From: an uncultured Nitrospira sp.
GTDB taxonomy: Bacteria > Nitrospirota > Nitrospiria > Nitrospirales > Nitrospiraceae
NCBI GenBank assembly: GCA_902500825.1
Contig: CABVRX010000021.1
Span: forward strand, 1 to 63,128
Length of the DNA stretch: 63,128 nt
Direction: 5' to 3'
The translations under genes were made by a program, and so were the position numbers. Shown one piece after another: positions 43,332 through 58,024 of this stretch (position 1 is its first letter; each line of letters opens with the position of its first letter). A model generated the notes under the pieces. It worked only from the letters and a program-made list of their open reading frames with translations. It was not told where the DNA came from and made no database searches.

Positions 43332-45454
43332 CATACTAGATGCAGCGCGACGAGAATCATGTCGATGACCTTGATGCCGACAAACGGCACGATAACACCG
43401 CCCAACCCAAAGATCAGCAGGTGACGCCGCAGCAAGAGACCGGCACCGATCGGTTGATACTTGATTCCTCGTAAGGCAAGCGGAATGAGCGCGACGATGA
43501 TCAGCGCGTTGAAGATGACCGCTGACAGGACTGCGCTCTGGGGAGTCGCCAACCCCATCACGTTCAATGCGTCGAGCACCGGATAGGTCGTGGCAAAGGC
43601 CGCTGGAATGATCGCGAAGTACTTAGCCACATCGTTGGAGATGCTGAAGGTGGTCAACGCACCGCGTGTCATCAGCAACTGTTTGCCGATTTCTACGATT
43701 TCAATGAGCTTGGTGGGATTGGAATCCAAATCGACCAGATTCCCAGCCTCCTTGGCTGCTTGCGTTCCCGTATTCATGGCGACCGCCACATCAGCTTGAG
43801 CCAGCGCCGGGGCATCGTTCGTGCCATCGCCCGTCATGGCCACGAGTCGGCCTTCGGCCTGCATATCGCGGATCAATTTCAGTTTGGTCTCCGGTGTGGC
43901 CTGCGCAAGAAAATCATCCACCCCGGCTTCCGCCGCCACGGCCGCGGCTGTTTGTGGGTTGTCACCGGTGATCATGACTGTTTTGATGCCCATGCGCCGC
44001 AGCTCACCGAACCGATCTTTGATCCCGCCCTTGACGATATCTTTGAGCGCGATCACCCCGAGCACTTTTGCATTCTCTGCCACGACGAGAGGAGTCCCGC
44101 CTTGCTTCGCGATTGTCTCCACAAGAGCTTTCACGAATTGTGAGAAGTGTCCCCCTTTCGACGTGACATACGCTTCAATGGCATCGGCCGACCCCTTACG
44201 GATCTGCCGTCCGTCCAGATCGACTCCGCTCATGCGGGTTTGTGCCGTAAAGGGAATGAATTTGGCGCCTAGCTCATGGATGTCTCGCGCGCGCAATCCA
44301 TACTTCTCTTTCGCCAGAACGACGATGCTGCGGCCTTCCGGCGTCTCGTCAGCCAACGACGAAAGTTGGGCTGCATCGGCCAGGGCCTGGGCCTCTACTC
44401 CTTCTGCGGGAGTGAAGGTGGTCGCCTGACGGTTGCCCAGCGTAATCGTCCCGGTCTTATCCAGCAGCAGCACGTCCACATCGCCGGCGGCTTCGACCGC
44501 TTTCCCAGACATGGCAATCACATTCGCTTGCACCATCCGGTCCATGCCGGCAATCCCGATGGCCGAGAGGAGAGCCCCGATGGTCGTCGGAATCAGACAG
44601 ACCAAGAGTGCCACGAGCACCGTGACAGTGACCGGCATCCCCTGCCCCATGGCCTGCACGCTATAGAGCGAAAAGGGCAACAGAGTCACCGTTGCCAATA
44701 AGAAAATGATGGTCAGAGCTGCCAGCAGAATGGTCAGGGCGATTTCATTCGGTGTTTTCTGGCGCTTGGCTCCTTCCACCATCGCGATCATCCGGTCCAG
44801 GAAGCTTTCCCCAGGGCTCGCCGTGACACGAACGATGAGCCAGTCTGACAGAATCTTCGTGCCCCCTGTCACAGCACTGCGATCTCCTCCGCTTTCTCGT
44901 ATGACGGGCGCGCTCTCGCCGGTGATGGCGCTCTCATTCACGGACGCCACTCCCTCAACGATCTCGCCATCGGCGGGGATAAGATCTCCGGCTTCGACCA
45001 GGAATACATCCCCTTGCTTCAGTTGATTCGCCGACACCATGCTGAATGGATCGCCTCGCTGAAATTGACGGTTCCACACAGCAGAGTACTCGCTGCTGAG
45101 ATCGACCGTGCCAAGCTTCTTGGCCGTGAGTTCCCGTCGCGCCTTCTTGAGCCAATCGGCCTGCGCTTTGCCCCGACCCTCCGCCATCGCTTCGGCAAAG
45201 TTGGCAAACAGCACCGTGAACCAGAGCCACACCGTGATGAAAAGAATAAACTGGGTAGGAGCCTCGCCGACCCCCACCAGCGCTTGCAACAATAAAATGG
45301 TGGTGACGACACAACCGACCCACACTACGAACATCACCGGATTCTTGACCTGGTGACGCGGGTTTAACTTGCGAAAGGAATCGACTATTGCCTGGCGCAC
45401 GATCGTCGGCTCGAATAAGGACCGGCTCTTCTCCGCTTGAGTCTGTTTCGTCAT
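43331..45454 (-). CDS. kdpB: KdpB, potassium-transporting P-type ATPase
   Basis: A 707-residue P-type ATPase. Motifs: TGES in the actuator (ITGESAPV), phosphorylation site DKTGTIT, nucleotide-binding KGSAD, hinge [11 protein letters not shown]. The length equals or slightly exceeds the E. coli enzyme (682). It provides ATP hydrolysis for K+ uptake through KdpA. GAAGG before ATG 45454 lies just outside the edge of the repeat at 45467-45672, so that element supplies the entire kdpA-kdpB spacer but not the ribosome binding site. Confidence 0.96.
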
Positions 45455-45466
45455 GATGTTCCTTCA

Positions 45467-45672
45467 CCCCCATTATTCACGAACGCTTCTACTGCAACCG
45501 CCGATACACCGCTGCGACGAGCTTGGCCGCGTGGGTTGCGCGCCCAAGCGGTCAGGCTCACCCCGCGCGGCCTCAACGTACTGCACGAGTATGCCTCGGC
45601 CGCGTGACTTCGCATGTCCGTCTCGCTTGGCGTCTCGACGGTTTCGCGACGAACCCTCATGAATAATGTGGG
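45467..45672. repeat. Long palindromic repeat between kdpA and kdpB (family B)
   Basis: A 206-bp element bounded by 16-bp terminal inverted repeats: CCCCCATTATTCACGA (45467-45482) and TCATGAATAATGTGGG (45657-45672), 14 of 16 pairing. Complementarity continues inward (AACCGCCGA against TCGACGGTT). The centre, read leftward, is GAGGCATACT...CAGTACGTTGAGGCC, almost the same as the core of family A copy 3. A 75-codon frame crosses it but has no support as a gene. Its right end is 11 bases from the kdpA stop. Confidence 0.8.
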
Positions 45673-45683
45673 ATTCACAACAA

Positions 45684-47486
45684 TCAGCCCATCATCAACA
45701 GATGCTCGACGATCGGGCCCAGCGCCAGCGCCGGCACGAACGTCAGACCACCGACCAGCAGCACGACGCCGATCAGCAAGACTACGAACAACGGCGTATG
45801 CGTCGGCAACGTTCCGGGACCGGCAGGCGTCAATTTCTTCCGCGCCAGGGCGCCGGCGAGCGCGAGAGTCAGCACCGCCAGCCAGAAGCGGGAGGCGAGC
45901 ATCGCTAATCCACCCGTGGTGTTATAGAAAACCGTATTGGCGTTCAGCCCGCCGAACGCGCTCCCGTTGTTGTTGCCCTGAGAGGTGTAGGCATAGAGAA
46001 TCTCGCTAAGGCCATGAGGGCCGGGATTGAGAATCGAAGCCGTGCCGGCAGTCGTGACCGTGGCGACCGCCGTCAGGCCCAACACGACGATCGGCATGAT
46101 CAAAATGAGTAGGGAGGCCATCTTCATCTCATAGGGCTCGATTTTCTTGCCGAGGTATTCCGGCGTGCGGCCGACCATCAGCCCGGCGATGAACACGGCG
46201 ATGATCGCAAAAACCAGCATCCCGTAGAGGCCCGAGCCGACGCCGCCCAGGATCACCTCGCCGAACTGCATCAGGAACAGCGAGACCAGGCCGCCCAAGG
46301 GCGTGAACGAGTCATGCATCGAATCGACGGCGCCGGTCGACGTCGCGGTCGTCGCGGCGGCAAAGATCGCGGTGCGCGCGATGCCGAAGCGCGCCTCTTT
46401 GCCTTCCATATTTCCGCCCGGCTGGACACTGCTCGGGGCGTGATCGACGCCGAGCGTCGCGATCCGAGGATTTCCGGCGGATTCGGCCAGATAGCCGCCC
46501 AGCACAAAGACGAGCAACACCGCCAGCATCGCGGCGAGAATCGTCCAGCCTTGCCGCGTATCACCGACCATGACGCCGAACGTATAGGTCAACGCGGCGG
46601 CAAGCAGGGTTTCGGCCAAGATCAGCAGGAAGTCGGTAAACGGCGTGGGACTCTCAAACGGATGCGCGGCGTTCGCGTTAAAGAAGCCGCCCCCGTTGGT
46701 GCCGAGATGTTTAATGGCGACTTGCGAGGCGGCCGGGCCGACGGCCAATATCTGATGGTGCGCGGTCGCCGGCTCCGTCTTCGGCTTCCCCTGCTCATCC
46801 AACGACGGCTGTCCGTTGCCATCCGTCACCGGCTTCTCATACTGTACCGGCTGGACGACGCGCGCTGTTTTATAGTCATCGAACGTTTGGACGGCCCCCT
46901 GCCCGACCAACAGCAGCGCGACGATCATCGCGAGCGGAAGCAAGATGTACAGAGTGCTCCGAACGAGATCCACCCAGAAGTTGCCGATGGTCTGCGAACT
47001 GCGACGAGCCAGCCCTCGGATGAAGGCGACGAGAATAGCCATGCCGGTCGCCGTCGAGACGAAATTCTGAACGGTGAGGCCCATCATCTGCGTGAGATAG
47101 CTCATCGTTGATTCGCCGCCGTATGCTTGCCAGTTTGTGTTGGTGGTAAAGCTGGCCGCCGTATTGAACGCAAGATCAGGCGCCACGGCGCCGAACGCCT
47201 GGGGATTGAGCGGCAGGAGTCCCTGTATCCGTTGCAACAGGTAGAGGGCCAGGAGTCCGAACACGTTGAACAGGAGCATCGCGACAGCGTAGGTCTTCCA
47301 CGTCATCTCTTCATGGGAACAGACGCCGCAGAGTCGATAGAGGCTTCTCTCAGCGGGACCCAGCACGCGATCCAAGCCGCAGGGCTTACCTTCATGTACG
47401 CGCGCCATGTACCAGCCAAGCGGCTTGACGAGCGCGAGCAGAACTCCAAAAAAGAGGACGATTTGCACGAGGCCGTTGATTGTCAT
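45684..47486 (-). CDS. kdpA: KdpA, potassium-translocating subunit
   Basis: A 600-residue membrane subunit of the superfamily of K+ transporters, with ten-plus transmembrane helices and four filter-type loops: [42 protein letters not shown] and [12 protein letters not shown]. It selects and conducts K+. ATG 47486 is taken as start because its A overlaps the kdpF stop (TGATG), the classical arrangement; the frame itself begins at GTG 47495. The C-terminus is intact to TGA at 45684. Confidence 0.96.
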
Positions 47487-57900: not shown

Positions 57901-58024
57901 GCAGGCGGATCAAAACGGTTGTCCAGCGAGGCCGCAACGAACGAGAGGCTGAGGCGTACTTCCCAGTACGTTGAGGCCTTGAGAGACGTGAGAACAAAGC
58001 TGGCGATCGTTTTCATCTGCCTGC
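57901..58024. repeat. Palindromic intergenic repeat, family A copy 3
   Basis: Left arm GCAGGCGGATCAAAACGG (57901-57918) pairs with the right arm (reverse complement GCAGGCAGATGAAAACGA, ending 58024), and the stem continues with TTGTCCAGC against TCGCCAGC. The centre is the core GAGGCGTACTTCCCAGTACG followed by TTGAGGCC. It is shorter than copies 1 and 2. The right end shares its last base with the stop triplet of the leftward 76-residue gene. Confidence 0.82.

Follow-up and report, generated by a model that had tools for sequence, protein, structure and literature searches.

The 63,128-nucleotide stretch of DNA from an uncultured Nitrospira sp. analysed here (the window) carries a kdp operon whose kdpA and kdpB genes are both intact. 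Pfam recognises KdpA, KdpC and KdpD, and KdpB is known from its P-type ATPase domains and its position. Between kdpA and kdpB lies a 206-bp palindrome with 16-bp terminal inverted repeats (Table 1), and its span and repeats, as given in a preliminary description of the sequence, were both confirmed. The minus strand is the L-to-R strand of the element and coincides with the direction of kdp coding and transcription; read on that strand, the right end (45482-45467) is ...TCGTGAATAATGGGGG. The stop codon of kdpA (45684-45686) is 11 bp away from the element and the start codon of kdpB, at 45454, is 12 bp past it. With 206 bp and 16-bp repeats, the palindrome has no coding capacity and is too short to encode a transposase, which is the size of a MITE.

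Table 1 Features of the kdpA-kdpB palindrome and its surroundings in the window.
Feature	Position	Strand	Basis
kdpA, intact, 603 aa	45684..47495	-	PF03814, 788 bits
kdpB, intact, 707 aa	43331..45454	-	P-type ATPase domains; operon position; matches in 27 other operons
Presumed ribosome-binding site of kdpB (AAGGA), retained despite the insertion	45460..45464	-	Sequence; L132-L135, with empty sites, conserve AGGA
MITE, 206 bp	45467..45672	-	Ends; copies genome-wide; empty sites in relatives
Left terminal inverted repeat CCCACATTATTCATGA	45657..45672	-	Exact family-end match; identical to the IS1380-type end of L241 over 16 bp
Right terminal inverted repeat CCCCCATTATTCACGA	45467..45482	+	2 mismatches against the consensus
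Target-site duplication, kdpB side	45463..45466	.	Reads TTCA on + and TGAA along kdp; overlap with the kdpB ribosome-binding site
Target-site duplication, kdpA side	45674..45677	.	TTCA on +
Apical arm of the conserved fold, with GA/GA internal loops	45550..45619	-	Alignment columns 55-129; compensatory changes
Core hairpin GAGGCATAC-TCGTGCA-GTACGTTGA	45573..45597	-	Also present in family A and in further palindromes of Nitrospirota
Second hairpin of the fold	45521..45549	-	Pair counts; alignment A2, columns 130-161
Family A-type palindrome at the kdpB-kdpC border, with an additional insert in its loop	43165..43330 (about)	-	Ends unlike those of the MITE

The kdp operons of relatives show this site empty. 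In 27 other kdp operons of the same genus, the gap between kdpA and kdpB is about 17-29 bp where both ends could be placed; the four closest relatives, whose KdpB is 88-92% identical along the aligned N-terminus, have a gap of 21 bp, e.g. gattgttgCCGAggaacatc followed by ATG. None of the other kdp operons sampled has this insertion between the two genes. In the kdp direction, the window junction reads gattgttg TGAA T (element) TGAA ggaacatc followed by ATG, and the empty site of the relatives has CCGA/CTGA at the matching place. Comparison of the empty 21-bp sites with the window junction therefore places the target at a 4-bp site adjoining the kdpB ribosome-binding site, duplicated as TGAA with one extra base; the unmatched base, 45673, stands between the kdpA-side duplication and the element. 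No target-site duplication had been obvious in the preliminary description, but TTCA is present on both sides on the plus strand and is backed by the empty sites. The 21-bp junction is now about 230 bp long. Within its family, the window copy has slightly decayed ends besides the extra base, and its target TTCA departs from the usual CTAG.

Searches beyond the operon recovered many more copies. In its own genome, the element has matches at eight separate places (E<1e-4), and 63 distinct copies were gathered within the genus (loci L001-L195). A search of 59 genomes found the exact end GCCCRCATTATTCATGA in 24, every one of the same genus, so that the genome-wide search for the terminal repeats suggested at the outset did not leave a single-copy sequence. 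An exact 4-bp repeat, mostly CTAG, stands on both sides of 27 of the 63 copies. Since some copies are flanked by direct repeats that are not palindromic (TTAG/TTAG, CTAA/CTAA, ATAG/ATAG), these flanks represent a target duplication and no mere extension of the inverted repeat. When the flanks of six further copies of the same genome were joined and searched in relatives, empty sites with a single target were found, in most cases CTAG or a near variant; empty sites are thus present for the kdpA-kdpB copy and for six others. For two copies, C28 and C11, an interrupted match to the flanks in some relatives makes the site appear occupied there as well, and therefore the family is not all recent. 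Copies have no preferred orientation with respect to neighbouring genes (15 against 21). Multi-copy ends, empty sites and target duplication bear out the earlier proposal of a MITE-like mobile unit, and on sequence criteria the palindrome is a MITE, i.e. a mobile element.

The position of the copies relative to reading frames was also recorded. An open frame of at least 100 codons enters the element and has the TAG/TAA of the target duplication as its exact stop codon in 23 of 61 copies; for frames of at least 200 codons, the count is 17 of 61. The comparison set, 60 CTAG sites of the window, gave 10 and 0, respectively, and is a small and imperfect null with coding sites purged. These counts are suggestive of enriched MITE insertion at stop codons. 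Insertion at a stop codon would keep the host gene whole.

The interior of the element is conserved as a fold. The window copy folds better than all its shuffled versions (z of -3.5 on the plus and -4.4 on the minus strand; none of 200 shuffles equalled either strand). An alignment of 37 copies (A2) supports a hairpin over the whole length that branches into two arms, the second of which (columns 130-161) is absent or shorter in a subfamily of 181-190 bp. In this alignment, 94.3% of the paired cells are complementary, compared with 29-41% after a shift of one side by 1-3 columns, and 36 of the 73 pairs have changed on both sides in at least one copy; none of 500 shuffles reached the observed values. 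Because related copies inflate such counts of pair changes, the changes were placed by parsimony on a FastTree tree. This yielded 66 double-compensatory events, 63 of them outside the 16-bp ends, against 2-7 in the slid controls, over which some advantage is expected since the structure was derived from the same copies. These counts show an interior in which compensatory changes have preserved the fold. Both the mobility of the 206-bp element and its conserved fold are well supported.

Several positions inside the fold are unpaired and nevertheless constant. GA stands opposite GA at columns 64-65/120-121, 71-72/112-113 and 80-81/104-105, and GA is also found at columns 28-29 and 50-51. These unpaired GA columns are 84-100% conserved, and the opposite strand would read TC/TC. 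With the ends and one constant G-U pair set aside, the imperfect pairs of the L-to-R strand are more often G-U (99) than A-C (61). The GA loops and the G-U excess thus point to the L-to-R strand as the putative folded strand, in a sample of 37-44 related copies that does not amount to a strict test. Rfam gave no match at the gathering threshold in the window, and the elements of related loci likewise had none above it; at a relaxed threshold, only tRNA, tmRNA and chance matches appeared.

The apex of the fold is not confined to this element. The core at 45573-45597 (minus strand, GAGGCATACTCGTGCAGTACGTTGA) is common to a second palindrome of the window at 57951-57974 (plus strand, GAGGCGTACTTCCCAGTACGTTGA), which agrees with the earlier claim of a core shared with the family A palindromes. 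The palindrome at the kdpB-kdpC border, however, matches more loosely than the "base for base" once claimed, as its loop holds an insert of about 49 nt. The copy in L161 lacks this insert, and the whole palindrome is absent from L159, L160 and L162. Family A elements of this genome have CAGGATG.TCAAAAAG-like ends, are about 125 bp long and lack the IS1380-type terminal repeat; what they have in common with the MITE is the apical hairpin GAGGCRTAC...GTAYGTYGA and the surrounding GA/GA loops. The two palindromes at successive kdp borders are accordingly related in these parts, but their ends differ and therefore they are separate elements and not copies of one. At the kdpB-kdpC border of another genome (G010, locus L163) there is yet another palindromic repeat, of the GTCATTCCCGC...GCGGGAATCCAG type, which means that insertion at this border has happened repeatedly.

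The motif GAGGCRTACN{4,14}GTAYGTYGA occurs 29 times in the genome of the window, and its reversed control does not occur. Across the Nitrospirota, the motif was found in 72 of 198 genomes and 27 of 95 genera, with up to 100 copies per genome and a single reversed-control match overall, and in another family of this phylum the same apex lies inside palindromes with yet other ends. Among 36 genomes selected for IS1380 elements, three contain the motif, and one of these, a Krumholzibacteriia MAG, has 22 matches. The copies in this MAG are MITEs of 178 bp that have the ends CCCGNATTATTCATGAAGG and the same apex. Where both flanks could be read, they show direct 4-bp duplications (TTAG, CTAG, TTCA, TTAA), and the TTCA cases indicate that the target of the window copy is used elsewhere too. 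An IS1380 element of the same MAG begins with TTAA followed by CCCGCATTATTCATGAA. R1, a covariance model built on the apical arm in Nitrospira, to which the window arm belongs by construction (58.2 bits), finds the Krumholzibacteriia copies at E values of 1e-5 to 7e-5. Scores were weaker for family A and other Nitrospirota copies, and a sequence-only model found fewer. These results are only partly independent because most of the scanned loci were chosen by the 18-base motif. As far as these comparisons reach, the shared core is a phylum-wide module and no proof that the kdp palindromes are copies of one element.

The strand of the core motif relative to replication was counted in five closed genomes (G022, G024, G059, G060 and G091), taking dnaA as the origin and the opposite point as the terminus. 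Sixty motifs lie against and 33 with replication, as raw counts with all gene directions together.

The lack of an orientation preference relative to genes makes a function of the mRNA strand less likely, which leaves a role in mobility, a role of single-stranded DNA, or covariation that is purely mutational. In the last case, the element would be an ordinary MITE in which template switching at replication hairpins copies one arm onto the other, and the fold would have no function. Such switching is a known process for quasi-palindromes. Many of the compensatory changes are isolated single pairs, which correction of this kind could also produce, and the absent orientation preference fits as well. 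However, template switching should erase the internal GA/GA mismatches, which are conserved on one strand throughout the family, and the apex recurs across the phylum and in Krumholzibacteriia. We consider a purely mutational origin rather unlikely; the conserved GA loops argue against it. We tentatively propose, as a possibility with some claim to attention, that the hairpin, with its stacked GA/GA loops, has an active role in the mobile element, functioning as RNA or single-stranded DNA in mobility or in host tolerance, and has been adopted by several unrelated transposon end-types across the Nitrospirota and in another phylum. In the favoured reading of the element, selection presumably maintains the folded L-to-R strand, as RNA or as single-stranded DNA, and the most likely benefit of the fold is movement or persistence of the element, or insertions that are tolerable to the host.

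The ends of the element indicate its probable source of mobility. The MITE ends CCCRCATTATTCATGA, flanked by YTAR, match those of 1.7-kb insertion sequences of the IS1380 family (PF13701). IS1380 elements were surveyed in the genus and in a collection of 84,980 species, and were found in Nitrospira, Rokubacteria, Acidobacteria, Proteobacteria and others. Those with such ends and flanks are about 1.68-1.74 kb long, have ends of the form CC[CT][AG][CG]ATTATTCA[CT]GA flanked by CTAG, and make 4-bp YTAR target duplications. The first 20 bp of a Nitrospira IS1380 element (L241) are identical to those of MITE copies L070 and L097, and 19 of the 20 end positions are identical to the window copy. Overall, 15-20 bp at one or both ends are common to the MITE and IS1380 elements such as L241, L198 and L104. 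These shared ends suggest that an IS1380 transposase probably moves the MITE in trans. Lacking a PF13701 transposase, the element is not an insertion sequence proper.

The identity of the ends over 16-20 bp would also fit an origin by simple internal deletion from a resident IS1380 element. Past the terminal 17-25 bp, however, the interior of the MITE resembles none of 11 IS1380 elements, save for short matches at chance level (e.g. 26 bp at 85-88% in L198), and is instead common to other palindrome families. Such a derivation is improbable, and the PF13701 elements were rejected as exact parents, as their ends agree and their interiors differ. The preliminary description had suggested looking for an autonomous transposase with the same ends; IS1380-family genes do share ends and target, but among the IS1380 elements examined, no autonomous insertion sequence had both ends and subterminal sequence like the MITE. 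A 1.2-kb pair of ends in G017 that was considered as an autonomous insertion sequence proved to be two separate MITEs, and lone ends checked for an adjoining transposase-like frame showed no obvious one. The window's own genome (G000) has no PF13701 match, and present-day mobilisation there is therefore not supported. The element is very probably a non-autonomous IS1380-family MITE that was inserted between kdpA and kdpB of this Nitrospira after its split from the nearest sampled relatives, with an IS1380 transposase supplied in trans presumably performing the excision and insertion.

In the kdp operon, the closing stem of the fold stops just short of the kdpB ribosome-binding site. The MITE may be pictured here as a structured non-coding spacer that would leave this site outside the stem and separate translation of kdpB from that of kdpA. 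Loss of kdpA-kdpB translational coupling through the insertion is a prediction. It could also be supposed that the copy has been domesticated at this site as a cis-acting RNA regulating kdpB expression, in that the element strand is the transcript strand and a strong fold stands immediately 5' of the ribosome-binding site. This is quite improbable, since no other sampled kdp operon has this insertion, copies adjoin unrelated genes in both orientations, and the element has neither an Rfam match nor, in a scan for them, any promoter or terminator pattern. A REP/BIME-type palindrome mobilised by a RAYT (HUH) transposase would likewise be intergenic, palindromic and multi-copy, but long terminal inverted repeats and 4-bp target duplications, as in the DDE (IS1380) family, make this highly improbable.

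The MITE of the window differs from the IS1380 insertion sequences, with which it shares terminal repeats and 4-bp YTAR duplications at loci from Nitrospira and other phyla, in its length of 206 bp, in the lack of a transposase and in an interior that departs from theirs after about 20 bp at either end. MITEs that fold, lie between genes or sit inside operons are already known (PMC10969869, PMC4133298, PMC11578231). TIMEs, QMITE2 and Chunjie (PMC10969869; TIMEs, PMC4133298) are similarly short and usually multi-copy, with terminal inverted repeats and target duplications, and they too are intergenic and fold as RNA. Chunjie, according to a title in the reference list of PMC10969869, lies within an operon that it leaves undisturbed. 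TIMEs are tied to Tn3 transposases (PMC4133298), whereas the MITE of the window is tied to IS1380, and its fold is backed by counted compensatory changes and by an apex shared with another phylum. MITEPye1 of Paracoccus yeei resembles it as a low-copy, intergenic element with IS-like ends and a long stem-loop, but is presumably mobilised by IS1182-family elements (PMC11578231). The family A palindromes of Nitrospira, to which the other palindromes of the window belong, have the same apex and GA/GA loops and differ in ends and length. No description of an IS1380-linked MITE was found in the literature searched, which is weak evidence given its incomplete coverage.

MITEs are usually viewed as leftovers of transposons in which only the ends are of importance. 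In the present element, dozens of compensatory changes have held the interior in a specific fold, and the apex of this fold is found again with other ends and in a second phylum. This raises a testable question, namely what the folded strand does for a mobile palindrome. The answer would also offer one structural explanation for many intergenic palindromes of Nitrospira and its relatives.
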